Shown one piece after another: positions 6,162 through 22,257 of a stretch of DNA of 27,684 nt; position 1 is the stretch's first letter; every line of letters begins with the position of its first letter. The DNA lies in the IMG/VR virus record IMGVR_UViG_3300021961_000487, positions 1-27,684 of that record. One strand, 5' to 3'. The position numbers and the translations under genes were made by a program. This DNA is from a virus. The notes beneath the pieces were generated by a model. That model had not been told where the DNA came from. It was given only the letters and a program-made list of their open reading frames with translations, and made no database searches.

Positions 6162-6586
6162 GAAACCTCTGATTTGCCTTTAGAAATTGGTGTAACATTG
6201 ATATAGCCTGCTGGTCTATTAACATCTAGTCCTTCGTCGGAAAGCATCTGTCGAACAATATCTCTAAACCAACGATCGACGATTTCCTCCTCAGGATCAC
6301 CTTCAAAACCATATCCCTCTTGCTTTAATTTTAGCACAAAAAGCTCATTCCAGTCAAGTTCAAAAAAGCCGTTGCGGATGTTATCTGGATTTACTTTGGT
6401 ATCGAGCACAGATACCCAAGCCTCTCCTTTTTTGGTAGCACGTTCTTTTGGTGTTAGTTTGGCTAGTTCTTCGGCTTCTTGTGCTCTAACTGTTTCGGCA
6501 ACTGCTTTATCTCTAGCTTCTTCAAGAGCTTGTTTTTCTTCTTCTAATTTCTTAAGACCTGTAATTCGTTTAATAAAGTCTTTCAT
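6158..6586 (-). CDS. Conserved phage hypothetical protein with coiled-coil N-terminus
   Basis: I place the start at the ATG sharing one base with the queE stop (TAATG) rather than the GTG four codons upstream, giving 142 residues. Residues 10-45 form a Lys/Glu/Ala-rich coiled coil, followed by a globular part with GEAWVSVLDTKVNPDNIRNG and FFELDWNELFVLKLKQEGYG. This family is recalled from marine phages without known function. It is ATGA-coupled to the RNase H gene. Confidence 0.8.
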   Translation of the reverse strand: MKDFIKRITGLKKLEEEKQALEEARDKAVAETVRAQEAEELAKLTPKERATKKGEAWVSVLDTKVNPDNIRNGFFELDWNELFVLKLKQEGYGFEGDPEEEIVDRWFRDIVRQMLSDEGLDVNRPAGYINVTPISKGKSEVS

Positions 6587-7437
6587 TATGTTCCCCACTC
6601 ATTTTTAAATAAAGGTACCTGTAAGCGATCTGAATAGCGTAGGCCTGCTTTCATTGCTAGTTCTGCTACACGGCGATTATTTAATGTATAGACACTTTCA
6701 ACTCCGCCTACGGGCATTAGATAACAAGGACCACTAAATCCTTCTGCTCTATAAATGTCATAAGTTTCGATCGCTTCTTCAGCATCTTCCTCTGTGGCTA
6801 CAACAAATTTCAAATAGGTATAGCCAACTTCTTCATATTCGCAGACAACTTCGGGTCGGATAGCTTCATGCCGCTCCTCACCAGAACAACTTAATTTAGC
6901 ACTGACTGAAAATGTCAATCGATGATACCCTCGATTTTCCATACCCCAGTCTCGCAAGTAATCTTTAAAAGTTGGGGTTAGCTTTTGAGTACCATTCGTT
7001 TCAAATGTAATTTCTTTGAGGTCTTTCATCTTAGGATGATCTAACAGTTCGGGGTAAGCACGTTGCCACCCAAGCAACGGTTCTCCTCCTGTGATGACAA
7101 GGTGCTCGTCTCGCCATTCCTTGAATGGTAGAATTTCAGAGATTCTTTCTGCGATGGCGTCGCTAGTAAGCATTGGGCTAAGATCCTTAAAGCGAGGATC
7201 CCAGCTAGCATAGCTATCACAACCAGTAGAAACCAATGGAAGTTCTTCATATGTTTTAAAATAATGTACTCGAGAAGCTATATCTTCAACTTCTTTGCTC
7301 AGTTCCCCTTTAGGCATACCGAAGCCAGCACATTTAAAGTTACAACCGAATGTACGTAAGAAAACAGAAGGAACGCCCATAAAGCGTCCTTCACCTTGAA
7401 TGCTGTAAAACAGCTCTGCGATTTTTAGTTTACTCAT
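6586..7437 (-). CDS. queE: 7-carboxy-7-deazaguanine synthase QueE (phage type)
   Basis: QueE is a radical SAM enzyme that contracts 6-carboxytetrahydropterin to 7-carboxy-7-deazaguanine. The N-terminal FYSIQGEGRFMGVPSVFLR block (residues 10-28) is the family hallmark, and VITGGEPLL (114-122) is the radical SAM GGEP motif. FETNGT and the late SAKLSC block also fit. The cluster cysteines are unusual: Cys32 and Cys36 (GCNFKC) lack the normal third Cys two residues later; the likely third ligand is Cys73 in STGCDSYASW, after a 36-residue insert. The protein acts with the FolE, QueD-like and DpdA-like proteins of the same strand. It overlaps the MazG-like gene by eight bases. Confidence 0.93.
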   Translation of the reverse strand: MSKLKIAELFYSIQGEGRFMGVPSVFLRTFGCNFKCAGFGMPKGELSKEVEDIASRVHYFKTYEELPLVSTGCDSYASWDPRFKDLSPMLTSDAIAERISEILPFKEWRDEHLVITGGEPLLGWQRAYPELLDHPKMKDLKEITFETNGTQKLTPTFKDYLRDWGMENRGYHRLTFSVSAKLSCSGEERHEAIRPEVVCEYEEVGYTYLKFVVATEEDAEEAIETYDIYRAEGFSGPCYLMPVGGVESVYTLNNRRVAELAMKAGLRYSDRLQVPLFKNEWGT

Positions 7438-12019: not shown

Positions 12020-12231
12020 GTTTTATCTTGTAGCCACATATCTACTTTTGCTTCTGCTTCTTCCTGCGTAACAGCATACGCATAGATCCAAAAGCAATCG
12101 TCTTTGCCTTTGACATCAAAAGGCACAGGACCATTAAACAGTATACCATCTTCTAGCATACGCTTTACTTCAAACTTTTTTAAATTTTTCGCACGATTAA
12201 TTAGATCGTTAGCCATATCTACAGAATTCAT
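12016..12231 (-). CDS. Small conserved hypothetical protein, 71 aa
   Basis: The 71-residue protein has a helical N-terminal half and a GKDDCFWIYAYAVTQEEAEA C-terminal block recalled from short phage proteins. No domain with known function is recognised. It is coupled by ATGA to folE upstream and to the 39-residue membrane protein downstream. Confidence 0.75.
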   Translation of the reverse strand: MNSVDMANDLINRAKNLKKFEVKRMLEDGILFNGPVPFDVKGKDDCFWIYAYAVTQEEAEAKVDMWLQDKT

Positions 12232-13052
12232 CTCGGGGCAAACTCCTGTTGTAGTTTAATATTGTCAAAGAACTCTTTCTTAGTATCGCCATCTTCTTTG
12301 AAAGCACCTTTTAATACTGTAGTTTGAGTCAATGATGAATGCGCCATGATGCCGCGATTCTCGCAGCATCCATGTACTGCTTGAATATACACGCCTAGGT
12401 CTTTGGCTCCTGTGGCTTTTTCGATTTCCCTAGCAATGTCATTAGCAAGTTCCTCCTGGAGAGTACCTCGACGGGCACACCACTGAGCGATCCTTGTATA
12501 CTTGCTAAGTCCGATGAGTTTCTGAGCCGCAATAATACCAATATAAGCAACGCCACTAACGGGTTGGTGATGATGGCTACACATACTGCGAAGCTCGCTA
12601 CGAACAACCAACATACCTTCATAACGATCCGCCGAATCGTTGGGGAAACTTGTTGCGTCTGGTGCTGGGTCATATCTACCTGCCATTATTTCGTTAAAAT
12701 ACATTTTAGCCAACCGACGTGCTGTGCCCTGACTATTAGGATCGTTTTCTCGATCAATAAGTAACCTATCGAGCACTAGTTCAAATGCTTCGGTTGCTTC
12801 GTCGATTAGCTTTGCTTTATCTTCTTCGCTAATATAGTCACTGATGTTATCGCCTGCCCAGAAACGTTTTTTATCACGTTTCATCTTAAAGCGGATCGCA
12901 TCGCCTAAGTATGCTTCTTGATAGCCTTTATCAGACATCATATCTGAAGCTTTTACATATACTTCTTTACCTAGAGGTTCGTATTCATCTTTCTTAAAGG
13001 ATCTATCGATGGGTTCGTTTATGATAGGATCTGGTTTAAATTCGCTGGTCAA
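12228..13052 (-). CDS. folE: GTP cyclohydrolase I (FolE), N-terminally extended
   Basis: FolE converts GTP to dihydroneopterin triphosphate, the entry step to 7-deazaguanines and folates. Motifs include SMCSHHHQPVSGVAYIGI (residues 156-173; zinc ligands Cys158 and His161), GLSKYTRI (181-188), LQEEL and AVHGCCENRGI (225-235; zinc Cys229 or 230). The usual Glu after the first Cys is Ser here. The start must be TTG at 13052: an in-frame TAA lies directly before it, and GGAG is eight bases upstream. About 80 extra N-terminal residues precede the catalytic domain, making it longer than the bacterial form. Confidence 0.95.
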   Translation of the reverse strand: MTSEFKPDPIINEPIDRSFKKDEYEPLGKEVYVKASDMMSDKGYQEAYLGDAIRFKMKRDKKRFWAGDNISDYISEEDKAKLIDEATEAFELVLDRLLIDRENDPNSQGTARRLAKMYFNEIMAGRYDPAPDATSFPNDSADRYEGMLVVRSELRSMCSHHHQPVSGVAYIGIIAAQKLIGLSKYTRIAQWCARRGTLQEELANDIAREIEKATGAKDLGVYIQAVHGCCENRGIMAHSSLTQTTVLKGAFKEDGDTKKEFFDNIKLQQEFAPR

Positions 13053-16370: not shown

Positions 16371-16564
16371 GATTGGATTATTTTGTTGTCGTGTGCTAAT
16401 TGCTTTTGTTTAAGTATAACAATTTCATCCTTCAAAGTCAACTTATGTTTCTTCAAATCAGTTAATCGTTGGTCGGTAAAATTGCCAGTTCTTTCCAAAG
16501 TTTCAATCTGTTTATCAATAGCCCTGTGGGCTTCTTCCAAATGCTTAATTCTTCTTTCATACAT
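16367..16564 (-). CDS. DUF465/YdcH-like small helical protein
   Basis: The start is ATG 16564, with a perfect AGGAGG six bases before it, overlapping the dpdA stop by eight bases; an ATG 26 codons earlier lies inside dpdA and is rejected. The 65-residue protein reads MYERRIKHLEEAHRAIDKQI, then LTDLKKHKLTLKDEIVILK, the two-helix hairpin of the DUF465 (YdcH) family. Those proteins have no established function. The strong ribosome site suggests high translation. Confidence 0.8.
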   Translation of the reverse strand: MYERRIKHLEEAHRAIDKQIETLERTGNFTDQRLTDLKKHKLTLKDEIVILKQKQLAHDNKIIQS

Positions 16565-18080
16565 TCTGAGCCTCCTGTTCGTAATAAAGTTCTTCAAGTT
16601 CACGAAGTTTTTCATCTTCGGGATCCATGAAATCTTCGACACTGCCCAATTTTTGTTCTTCTTGGAATAGTGAATTGAAATTATTTTTGGCTACGCCACC
16701 TTTGAGTCGCATACCCATCATATCCGCTAACATAGGTTTAGCATCATCAATCATCTGCATCGGTGTTTCGCTTTTGAACAGCTCTTTAACAAATCGATCA
16801 AAATATAAAACATTTCTAGGAACCCAATCTGAGTATTCGTCACTCATATCAGCATCTTTGATCTTTTTCCATTCTCTCCAATCGGGGGCGAATCTAGTAG
16901 TTTCGATATCAGTGAGATTGTTGGCTCGTTGTACAGCGACAATATGGCAATAGGTGTTATGCGCCATCATTAGAGCATAGCCAAAACTATCCCACGATGT
17001 TTTGCCTTCTTTTCCTACTTTGTTGAGCATTCCTGGTTTGTACCAGCAGATGTCGCCTTGGCTGAGTCTGCGTCCGATCTCTGATTCGAACGGGAATGGG
17101 ACATGAAAAGCCTGGCTAAGGGCTTTGTTGTCTGGGGCTTTGTCCATGATGACTGACCAGCGTTTGTTTGTGTGTTGGGCATTTGTGTAGACGAGTCCGT
17201 GTGCTGTTGCGATAAACGGGCTGGCACAATCAAAAGATATGGTAAAGTTTTCATTGATATGTTCTCTCACTTGTCGTTGAATCGACGTTAAATAACAACT
17301 CCAATCTAACTGGGCTGTACCTAAGAAGTGCATCCAGTTCCTATCATCTAAGAGCTTTTCGTCTCTTAGAATAATAAGCCTTTTTAATGCGACTTCCATA
17401 TCGCACATATTTTTACCACCCATCGCCCAACCTTCGGTGGGCAAATGTTTAACTGCTTCGTACCAAGCCTGTGCTGTTTCCCAGTCACTGCCTTGTAGAA
17501 CATTTAGGAATTTAGTTTGTCCTAATCGATTACGGATGAAGTAATCGTTATTGTGTAGTGTTTTATCTAGACAATCATCAAAACTCTTTAAACCAGTCTT
17601 TGGACTATGAATATGGTCACAGGCCCAAGTAGGAACGTCTAATAACATAGACCAATCAGCAGTTAACTCTAACCAATTAAGAATACTATCACGAGTTTTG
17701 TTGGCACTAGGACCATCAAAGTTTTGCCAGTCAAATTTAAGAACACCTTTACCAATCTGATATCCGCCTGAATCACCGACGATCACTGTATTAGCACGAT
17801 CGCGTTGTTGGATCATGCTGTCTTGTTTCATTGTTTTTTCAAGATCTAACTGTGCGTGACCTGCTGAATATAATCCATATTTGTAAGTAAAGTACCCTTG
17901 TTCAGGATTAAGGAAATTCATGCCCTCAATGCCGCGGTCAAAGCCTTTAGGAATACGATCCTGCGGAACAAATTCTTCGTATCGTTGTTTGCTGACGTAT
18001 GTTGAAAAAAAGCAACTAATCGCAGGCAAATAGACTGCGTAGTCTTTTTGTAATGGTGTTAGGTTAACTGGTTGTTTCAT
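16557..18080 (-). CDS. dpdA: DpdA-like DNA-guanine transglycosylase
   Basis: The 507-residue protein is a distant homologue of tRNA-guanine transglycosylase. Visible motifs, in TGT order, are GDSGGYQIG (residues 102-110; Asp103), LLDVP (146-150; Asp148), NVLQG (193-197; Gln196), GWAMGG (217-222, substrate loop), HFLGT, and SFDCASPF (282-289; Asp284 as candidate nucleophile). The C-terminal zinc motif of tRNA enzymes is not seen. DpdA proteins exchange guanine in DNA for a 7-deazaguanine, protecting phage DNA from host nucleases. The presence of folE, queD-like and queE nearby supports a DNA rather than tRNA role. About 180 residues follow the TGT core. Confidence 0.88.
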   Translation of the reverse strand: MKQPVNLTPLQKDYAVYLPAISCFFSTYVSKQRYEEFVPQDRIPKGFDRGIEGMNFLNPEQGYFTYKYGLYSAGHAQLDLEKTMKQDSMIQQRDRANTVIVGDSGGYQIGKGVLKFDWQNFDGPSANKTRDSILNWLELTADWSMLLDVPTWACDHIHSPKTGLKSFDDCLDKTLHNNDYFIRNRLGQTKFLNVLQGSDWETAQAWYEAVKHLPTEGWAMGGKNMCDMEVALKRLIILRDEKLLDDRNWMHFLGTAQLDWSCYLTSIQRQVREHINENFTISFDCASPFIATAHGLVYTNAQHTNKRWSVIMDKAPDNKALSQAFHVPFPFESEIGRRLSQGDICWYKPGMLNKVGKEGKTSWDSFGYALMMAHNTYCHIVAVQRANNLTDIETTRFAPDWREWKKIKDADMSDEYSDWVPRNVLYFDRFVKELFKSETPMQMIDDAKPMLADMMGMRLKGGVAKNNFNSLFQEEQKLGSVEDFMDPEDEKLRELEELYYEQEAQNV

Positions 18081-19225: not shown

Positions 19226-21892
19226 TTACTCAAAGTCAAACAATTTATTGAATGTATTATCCGACCTTGTACTGCTGATGTCCCATTCCAAAACACCGAT
19301 AAGGTTTTCTAGTTTTTCATCAATGACGGCAGTTTCCATCTCGCCGTCATTAAAGGGCAAGTCTTTGAACCATTGCGGCAACCTAAGTTCATCAACAGGA
19401 TAAGCAACTGATGTATATCCCATTGGATTATCTTTGACCTTACAGACGATGACTTTAGCACCGTCAGTGATGCCCATAGAATATTTGTCATCATGCATAC
19501 GCTTTAAAGTATTCCAATTCAAAGAAGCACGAACGTGACCTGGCATATTTGCCTTGCCTTGTTTCTTTTCCTTGGCCGCATATTCTGTAATATTATTAGC
19601 TCGTTTTGGAGAACCTTTCTCCCAGCCAGGTCTAGTTTTAAATTCAGTTCTGAAATTGGTTATATACTCGAGGATTTCGTCCTTGGGCACACCATTTAGT
19701 ACTTTTTCTAATACTTGACTCAAGAAATCTTGGATGATCACAGGAGTATCGCTACGTTTTAGATCCAAGCCCATGGCCTTGATCTTACCTGGCTTACCAT
19801 CTACGTCTGTTCGTTTACCTTCTTTATCGTAATAAAGAACAGCATACCGTTTCTTTGTAATGAATAAACCTTTTGATGCGACGATTTCACGTCCAGCTTT
19901 AATTACTTCGCCACGGGTCTTTGGACAATGGAATTTATCCTGCATCATCTTAGGAAAGCTGGCATTGACTTCATCTGCGATTTGATCATAGAGTTGTACG
20001 ATCGTTTCTTTAGTCCAAGGAAGTTTGCCAGACTCTATTTCTTTTTTCAGCACAGGATACGCAGAGAAGTAACAAGAGTCAGTATCGCCGTAGATAACTG
20101 CTTTGCCTTTGTAATCGTATTCGCCTGTGGCAATCTCGTTGATCTTACTAGCCATGTGCTTGACAATCTGCCTACCGCTGAGTGTAGTTGATTGGCCGAT
20201 GCGGTTATCAAAGAATCTACAACCGGGATTAAGAATAGCACCATACAAACTGTTCAAGTTAATTTTCTTAACCAATTGCCGCTTGTCCCAATATTCTTCT
20301 TCAACTTTGTTGCCTGCTTGTATACATTCTTTGAGTTTAGCCTGCATCTCTTTACGTTCAGCATACCAACGCTTTAACAGTCCAGGAATGATACCTTCTT
20401 TTTCGTAAGTGAAGATAGTGCCATTAGCACTTAGCATCCAAGGCTGGTTGCTTTCAAATATAAGATCATAGATTTGGGCACCGCTGAGGATATCGCTGCC
20501 GCCACTTTCCCAGTCGATGGTGATTTCCTTAGCGACATTTCGTTCCATAACGAACTCATATTCTAAACTACCAAATACACCTTCCCATGCGGCAGCAAAT
20601 GACTTGCCCTTGCCCATTTCTTGATCAATATAGTTTTTAGTGTAGTCTTGGCGTAATTGACCTATGATGGTCTCGGGCGCCATGTTCAAGGCACGAATAG
20701 CACTAGGATACAGTGAGTTGATGTCAACAGATCCGATCCATTCGTGGATGCCTTTCTTAGGATAGGCAACATACGCACCTGCCGCAGGTTCTGAACCGGG
20801 TTCTCTTCTGATTCGATTGGGTACTATAAAACCTCTGCGATGTGCTTCGTTAATGATGGCCTGTTCAGTAACAGCTACAGCACCCATTGTGGTCTGTAAT
20901 AGAACTGTGTTTTCGTGTGCGATCTTATTGGCAAGATCTAGGAACTGTAGTTTCTTATCGAGATCGTCTAGAAGTTGACAGTCTTGTCTGTTATATTCGA
21001 TGAACTTACGGAAATCATTGTTATACAGTTGATCCAATGTGCCTTCGTATTGTGTTTTAGTCTTTCCCAGCTCGTATTCTGCGATAGCATCTAATCGATA
21101 TGTATGGCGTTCTTCATAAGTATATTTGCGATACAGCTCAAGATAGTCTATATGGACTCTGCCTACGATATCATAGGTTAATGCCGTTCTACCATATTTT
21201 TCATATTCACGCTTTTTAGGATATTGCTCCCAAAGACAGAATCTGCGAGTATCGTCCTTGCTTAATGCTTTGGTAACACGATTAACAGTATAGGGAATAT
21301 CAAAGCCTTCTGAGTTCCAGCCACTTAAGATGTCAGCATCTTGAATCAGATTAAGAAAGTTATCTAACAGCTCTGCTTCGGTTTCGAAAATATATGTATT
21401 AGGAAACTCTTTAACTGCTTCAACGGCCTGCTCCATAGTCATAGTTTTTGGCGGAATAGCCAAGCAGACCATAGTCTCTAACCACTGAAGATAGACAGCG
21501 ATAGCGGTAATCGGCATGAACGCATCCTCCGGGGATGCGTATCCACGTTCGGGATCAAAATCAACTTCAATATCAAAGAACGCTGTATATAATTTAGGGG
21601 AATCTTGATTAAGATATTGATCTTCTAATATTCGATATATCGGATTGATATCGGATTCATACAGCTTCATTCCGCTGTGTATTTTTAATTCTTTGTGTAG
21701 ATCTTTGAGATTCTTACAAGTCACACGGCTTAAAGGATCGCCATTGATGCTTGTGTATTTGCCCTTAGGGTCTTGGAAATAAAAGATATGACGAGCAGGA
21801 TATTCTTTAAAATGCCTATTTCCTTTATCGTCTCGTTCAACGATATGGATAGTATCCTGATCGCGATTGTAAAATGCGTCAACGTAACTCAA
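19226..21892 (-). CDS. Family B DNA polymerase (gp43-like)
   Basis: The replicative polymerase has an N-terminal proofreading exonuclease (FDIEVDF, GWNSEGFDIPY and YNRQD; Exo I-III) and a polymerase domain with motif A (VDINSLYPSAI), motif B (KKINLNSLYGA) and motif C (YGDTDS), then the KKRYAV block. It ends NTFNKLFDFE, resembling the clamp-binding tail of T4-type polymerases. I choose the TTG at 21892 because AAGGAG lies six bases upstream; the product then starts (M)SYVDAFYNRDQ, 888 residues. A hairpin with 8-nt loop abuts this ribosome site, a possible autoregulatory operator. Confidence 0.95.
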   Translation of the reverse strand: MSYVDAFYNRDQDTIHIVERDDKGNRHFKEYPARHIFYFQDPKGKYTSINGDPLSRVTCKNLKDLHKELKIHSGMKLYESDINPIYRILEDQYLNQDSPKLYTAFFDIEVDFDPERGYASPEDAFMPITAIAVYLQWLETMVCLAIPPKTMTMEQAVEAVKEFPNTYIFETEAELLDNFLNLIQDADILSGWNSEGFDIPYTVNRVTKALSKDDTRRFCLWEQYPKKREYEKYGRTALTYDIVGRVHIDYLELYRKYTYEERHTYRLDAIAEYELGKTKTQYEGTLDQLYNNDFRKFIEYNRQDCQLLDDLDKKLQFLDLANKIAHENTVLLQTTMGAVAVTEQAIINEAHRRGFIVPNRIRREPGSEPAAGAYVAYPKKGIHEWIGSVDINSLYPSAIRALNMAPETIIGQLRQDYTKNYIDQEMGKGKSFAAAWEGVFGSLEYEFVMERNVAKEITIDWESGGSDILSGAQIYDLIFESNQPWMLSANGTIFTYEKEGIIPGLLKRWYAERKEMQAKLKECIQAGNKVEEEYWDKRQLVKKINLNSLYGAILNPGCRFFDNRIGQSTTLSGRQIVKHMASKINEIATGEYDYKGKAVIYGDTDSCYFSAYPVLKKEIESGKLPWTKETIVQLYDQIADEVNASFPKMMQDKFHCPKTRGEVIKAGREIVASKGLFITKKRYAVLYYDKEGKRTDVDGKPGKIKAMGLDLKRSDTPVIIQDFLSQVLEKVLNGVPKDEILEYITNFRTEFKTRPGWEKGSPKRANNITEYAAKEKKQGKANMPGHVRASLNWNTLKRMHDDKYSMGITDGAKVIVCKVKDNPMGYTSVAYPVDELRLPQWFKDLPFNDGEMETAVIDEKLENLIGVLEWDISSTRSDNTFNKLFDFE

Positions 21893-21898
21893 ATTTTT

Positions 21899-21923
21899 CT
21901 CCTTGCCACTTGCGGCTGGCAAA
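21899..21923 (-). promoter_or_regulatory. Hairpin at the DNA polymerase ribosome-binding site
   Basis: The minus strand reads TTGCCA (21922-21917), an eight-base loop, then TGGCAA (21908-21903), whose last bases are the start of AAGGAG (21904-21899), the polymerase Shine-Dalgarno. A U-G pair may extend the stem to seven. T4-type gp43 is known to bind a hairpin with an eight-base loop beside its own ribosome site and repress its translation; this structure has the same geometry though a different loop sequence. Confidence 0.55.
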
Positions 21924-21963
21924 CCAAACAGATCATTTATGGCTGACCGAACCTTACTGTATA

Positions 21964-22257
21964 TTAATTAATTATCATTCTTATCAGGCCGAGGCTATCT
22001 ATAGTGACTAGCAAGAGGTAGTTAGCCAACATGCCAAATGATTTCCTAGTATAAGCAGCCCAACCATACATAGCACAGCCGAGGATCCAAATAGGATAAA
22101 GAATGAGCAAAGGTGGAGTTGGGACTGTAAGGGCCATTGTGATTGAACAGCCGATCGATATAGCCCAAGCAAGCAGCTCGATGATAAAACGGAAAGGACT
22201 GCTATGCCAATCATCTTTGATCCATTGTATAGTAGGGCCAAATATTGTATTAATCAT
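21964..22257 (-). CDS. Three-span phage membrane protein, 97 aa
   Basis: Hydrophobic segments at about residues 23-43, 48-68 and 74-95 predict three membrane spans (for example ELLAWAISIGCSITMAL and LLILYPIWILGCAMYG). The RKSFGMLANYLLL region is recalled from conserved marine-phage membrane proteins beside replication genes. Function is unknown; a transport or membrane-anchoring role is guesswork. It is coupled to the DsbA-like gene by ATGA and precedes a 71-base gap before the polymerase start. Confidence 0.82.
   Translation of the reverse strand: MINTIFGPTIQWIKDDWHSSPFRFIIELLAWAISIGCSITMALTVPTPPLLILYPIWILGCAMYGWAAYTRKSFGMLANYLLLVTIDSLGLIRMIIN

Follow-up and report, generated by a model that had tools for sequence, protein, structure and literature searches.

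The first SELEX experiment was reportedly directed at the RNA operator of the bacteriophage T4 DNA polymerase, whose spread beyond close T4 relatives was, to our knowledge, unclear beforehand. In bacteria, the leader of the Escherichia coli rpsO gene (coding for S15) contains an H-type pseudoknot at the Shine-Dalgarno (SD) sequence that mediates autogenous repression. The DNA polymerases (gp43) of T4 and RB69 bind a hairpin in the leader of their own mRNA and repress its translation when they are not engaged in replication; this operator is described as one hairpin, with -UAAC- in its loop and no evidence of a pseudoknot (PMC3014915). The gene 32 operator of the same phages, on the other hand, includes a leader pseudoknot that serves autogenous translational repression (PMC3014915).

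Here we describe the leader of a phage polymerase gene contained in a window of 27,684 nucleotides (the whole stretch of DNA that was analysed, positions 1 to 27,684 of the IMG/VR record IMGVR_UViG_3300021961_000487). This gene (19226..21892, minus strand), the one under regulation, codes for a gp43-like family B DNA polymerase of 888 aa, which is proposed to act as the repressor. It was identified by Pfam (DNA_pol_B, E=1e-36), by its assignment to PHROG 262 (DNA polymerase) and by matches to solved structures, RB69 gp43 (residues 33-833, E about 6e-64) being one of the closest. Its start codon is a TTG (21890..21892, minus strand), the position at which homologues begin with ATG or TTG, and it is preceded by the SD sequence AAGGAG (21899..21904, minus strand), the order on the minus strand before the start being GGTTTGCCA-GCCGCAAG-TGGCAAGGAGAAAAAT-TTG. 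A longer start given by the ORF finder, a TTG at 21922 (minus strand), falls within the hairpin described below and was rejected, as relatives begin at the 21892 position; gene callers may misannotate the start of this polymerase. Two genes lie just upstream of the leader on the same strand, one for a 97-aa protein that appears to be membrane-bound (21964-22257) and one for a DsbA-like transcriptional regulator (Pfam PF11126; 22254-22514), and in related phages without the element a gene whose C-terminal ending is the same runs directly into the polymerase start. Elsewhere, the window encodes a 507-aa protein (16557-18080, minus strand) with a DSGGYQIGKG motif, which resembles tRNA-guanine transglycosylase/DpdA and has no PHROG or Pfam match, as well as a QueE-like radical SAM protein (6586-7437) and FolE (12228-13052); together, these three proteins suggest 7-deazaguanine DNA modification.

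The polymerase leader contains, on the minus strand, two tandem copies of GG(U/C), a short linker and a 5-bp stem with the loop GCCNNAAN, the second copy adjoining the SD sequence. Unit 1 (21931-21953, AAGGTTC-GGTCA-GCCATAAA-TGATC) contains a hairpin (21931..21948, minus strand) with the stem GGTCA/TGATC, which includes one G-U pair, and the loop GCCATAAA (21936-21943). A few bases 5' of this stem stands a GGU (21951..21953, minus strand), the 5' strand of a second stem (S1) that pairs with the loop GCC at 21941-21943. Unit 2 is arranged in the same way, with its GGU at 21923..21925 (minus strand) pairing with the loop GCC at 21914-21916, and a hairpin (21904..21921, minus strand) formed by the stem TGCCA/TGGCA and the eight-base loop GCCGCAAG (21909-21916). 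This second hairpin had been reported in the initial annotation as a stem with an eight-base loop ending on the SD of a TTG-initiated polymerase gene, a description that proved accurate: the stem has 5 bp (6 with an outer U-A pair) and its 3' strand stops at 21904, the A with which AAGGAG begins, an arrangement that relatives share. The outer pair (U21922-A21903) is possible only without the pseudoknot; as a pseudoknot, unit 2 of the window has a 5-bp stem and a one-base linker. The unit at 21931-21953 and the GG upstream of each stem, which pairs with the loop, had been overlooked, and the hairpin reported earlier is half of a larger element.

A protein search of IMG/VR with the polymerase retrieved 80 close relatives, whose leaders show the series GG(U/C), stem, GCCNNAAN, stem two times, with the copies 26-30 nt apart and the loop of the second one beginning 22-31 nt upstream of the start codon, followed by GGAG. 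A unit is present in every one of the 51 distinct leaders that belong to polymerases of 75% identity or higher, and in these the loop positions GCC and AA are invariant; the compensatory stem changes that the initial annotation had proposed to look for in such a comparison were found. Of the stem cells in alignment A1, which comprises 49 distinct tandem leaders, 95.6% are paired (74% in shuffles); two-sided changes occur at 9 of the 10 stem pairs, including all five of unit 1, and the covariation score of 0.643 drops to 0.03-0.14 after the partners are shifted by one to three columns. On this conservation, the leader element is judged to be far beyond chance. The stems also contain G-U pairs, which argues for an RNA rather than a DNA element. 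Tandem inverted repeats close to replication genes could be a replication-origin repeat or a cruciform acting at the DNA level, but such a role is very improbable given these G-U pairs, the location on the strand of the gene, the constant spacing from the start codon and the co-switching of the two S1 strands described below.

The pairing of S1 became visible in a wider sample including more divergent polymerases (62-71% identity), in which the loop GCC is replaced by GCU in several divergent clades and the upstream GG is there AG. GG[UC] precedes 330 of 330 GCC loops and AG[UC] precedes 46 of 46 GCU loops, where GG[UC] is never found, with no mixed case (173/173 and 46/46, respectively, counting protein-found loci only and leaving out those fetched by pattern), and one sequence with an ACU loop retains the complementary AGU. 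These counts come from a script, because the alignment of single-unit leaders (A3) leaves the 5' strand of S1 unaligned. On the polymerase tree, at least two joint switches of both S1 sides are counted in unit 2 and at least four in unit 1, with no one-sided switch. The AG/CU form is limited to a few clades, with about six independent switches, and S1 has three pairs only; since the independent pairs are too few for a sign test to reach significance, the evidence for S1 rests on the absence of one-sided switches. In three leaders (L255, L461 and L465), unit 1 carries AG/CU while unit 2 carries GG/CC, so S1 pairs within each unit, and a cross-unit pairing between the GG of unit 2 and the loop of unit 1, hinted at by the minimum-energy fold, was rejected. 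In each unit, therefore, two stems interleave and both show compensatory changes (in S2 from the alignment, in S1 from the co-switches), and the geometry of the unit (a 3-bp S1, a linker of 0-4 nt under the stem limits of the script, a 4-6 bp S2 and about five A-rich loop bases) is probably that of a minimal H-type pseudoknot.

A lone short hairpin could arise by chance, and the thermodynamics of the window leader are not decisive. When this leader is folded alone, the minimum-free-energy structure differs from the two hairpins (-16.3 vs -12.4 kcal/mol, hairpin-only folding), and its folding z-score (-0.8) is not significant; in a set of 133 tandem leaders, folding favours the stems, with median pair probabilities of 0.82 and 0.77. 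Small stems at the SD (HP2, -7.0 kcal/mol) could work on their own, as a ligand-free structure setting the translation level, the stability of the mRNA or a temperature response. This explanation is improbable, because both the loop sequence and the tandem copy, at its spacing of 26-30 nt, are kept beyond what folding needs.

The element seems dedicated to a single gene. IMG/VR was scanned for the tandem motif only, without a protein query, and, among the matches listed, all of the readable sites (119 of 119, at least 119 being readable) precede a polymerase of this type, 117 of them directly; in L159 a short ORF stands between the element and the polymerase, and in L173 they are parted by an HNH-endonuclease-like insertion (identified by eye) at positions 134-1000, on the opposite strand. 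A covariance model, run on eight tandem-clade contigs of 128–270 kb, found exactly one site per contig, with E values from 6e-14 to 2e-19 and the next match at E>1. Three whole contigs (two of these eight and one with a single unit) were also scanned piecewise with a pseudoknot descriptor, which gave 5 matches (two of them the operator) where 1.4 were expected, 1 where 2.2 were and 3 where 4.2 were, so that matches other than the polymerase leader are at or near chance. With one site per contig and the rest at or near chance level, these whole-contig scans led us to reject a global regulon. A weak match in G009, with E 0.006, falls within a tail-like gene and is attributed to chance, and the one match in GTDB genomes (L595) falls in an unrelated coding region. 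Rfam 15 gave no match to the window at the gathering score, none to the leader at E<=5 and no credible one to seven relatives; full-text literature searches found no description of the element.

Specificity for one gene also fits any regulator dedicated to the polymerase gene, and the covariation and the SD position require only some ligand. Another phage or host protein could bind the operator instead of the polymerase, such as a single-strand binding protein, a RegA-like repressor or a clamp-like product of the downstream gene, which codes for a 245-aa protein and matches the position of a gene annotated as sliding clamp in phage Phosso. We consider this unlikely, though it is the least improbable of the alternatives. 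The element is found at no other gene in the scanned genomes, making a general regulator unlikely, and the sites of T4 RegA are unstructured and spread across about 30 mRNAs (PMC3014915).

Among distinct protein-fetched leaders, a unit was found in 51/51 with polymerases at least 75% identical, 61/82 at 65-75%, 46/90 at 60-65% and 0/17 below 60%, the middle bands being lower bounds because leaders of class C (3-bp stems) are missed by the script; many polymerases at 60-67% identity are without the element. It is also absent from the named jumbo phages that were searched, whose polymerases are 32-51% identical (Phosso, Atu_ph07, Munch, 121Q, RaK2, CBB, GAP32, XaC1, Vibrio 2.275, SCTP-2, Paride, XacN1 and CM1). 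Scans of T4 and RB69 gave no match, blastn of the leader against cultured phages gave chance-level matches only, and in the sampled cyanophages the polymerase start adjoins or overlaps the preceding gene.

The architecture varies among relatives. In 61 of the 111 single-unit leaders scored, unit 1 is replaced by an ordinary stem-loop followed by CAUGUAGA. This second architecture occurs about 30-60 nt upstream of the polymerase start (in L305, L325, L352 and L377-L447); its stem-loop covaries (at least 21 stem sequences), CAUGUAGA is conserved and a single pseudoknot lies downstream. In four loci (L381, L384, L398 and L159), the element stands ahead of a short ORF that precedes the polymerase. 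This ORF is Cys-rich and codes for about 50 aa in L381 and L159, where its stop codon and the start of the polymerase share the sequence ATGA, an overlap that suggests translational coupling between both genes. In one clade (L353, L361), the SD lies within the stem of the unit, CCG[GCCATAAA]CGGAG. Such a location, together with the fact that H-type pseudoknots beside the SD are a known riboswitch design, would suit a tandem metabolite riboswitch in which two mini-pseudoknots close over the SD upon binding a nucleotide-like ligand. That is improbable, because beyond S1 and the loop AA almost nothing is invariant, leaving little for a binding pocket, metabolite switches usually control several genes and this element is found at just one, and it has no Rfam match.

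The initial annotation had proposed a gp43-style translational operator with the same geometry as those of T4 and RB69. The first part is strongly supported by the SD position, the covariation, the conserved loop and the exclusive association with the polymerase gene, whereas the geometry was wrong, since the units are supported as pseudoknots and are found in tandem here and as a single unit with a different hairpin in relatives. What is shared with the T4/RB69 gene 43 operator, a system under autogenous control, is a leader RNA structure with an eight-base loop, placed by the SD of a family B polymerase of the gp43 type. That operator has one hairpin with a -UAAC- loop (-UAAA- in RB49); here there are two tandem units with an RGY/GCY pseudoknot and a 3' stem touching the SD, and the loop, as claimed in the initial annotation, differs from that of T4 (GCCNNAAN here, AAUAACUC in the T4 leader). 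The element is not classifiable as a T4-type gp43 operator, since loop and fold were both tested and differ, although it would in all probability work like one. The gene 32 operator of T4/RB69 is also a pseudoknot in the leader of a phage replication gene, but it involves another gene and another protein, with one pseudoknot upstream of an unstructured cooperative site instead of a tandem at the SD. The rpsO leader shares the H-type pseudoknot at the SD but is a single unit, and its sequence, protein and organism are unrelated.

The pairs of the stems, the S1 pairing, the position at the SD and the single site per genome before the polymerase are all shown by comparison, and translational control by the leader element is well supported. 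The polymerase is the likely ligand, considering the specificity for its gene and the T4 precedent, and we infer cooperative binding at the twin units and a repressive effect of the structure on translation. Autogenous repression is the simplest reading, because the element is placed on the SD of a single gene, that of a gp43-like polymerase, and because of the T4/RB69 precedent; we give a probability of roughly 0.6 to the leader being an autogenous translational operator bound by the phage DNA polymerase. In the proposed mechanism, each unit of ~23 nt would fold as an H-type pseudoknot, in which the 5' RGY triplet would pair with the first three loop bases (GCY), the stem of 4-6 bp would stack beside S1 and the A-rich remainder of the loop would cross the short stem. 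Free polymerase would bind the SD-adjacent unit, plus its upstream twin in the tandem clade, blocking the binding of the 30S subunit; once engaged on DNA, the polymerase would release the leader and translation would resume.

On balance, we slightly favour the view that these leaders represent an uncurated RNA family of ~23-nt H-type pseudoknots, tandem or single, dedicated to the polymerase mRNA in a large group of uncultivated phages with jumbo-phage-like polymerases, and read by the polymerase as a two-site operator. If true, this would be a two-site design not known to have been described for phage polymerases, and cooperative self-repression would be directly testable. Hundreds of environmental phage contigs carry, in their polymerase leaders, a gene-dedicated RNA element with a different fold, and among them they offer a natural series of variants in stem, S1 and copy number, which makes it possible to ask how a DNA polymerase recognizes a particular RNA and in what way the operator and its polymerase diverge jointly. 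It would also be a very small tandem protein-responsive RNA switch, useful for design work.
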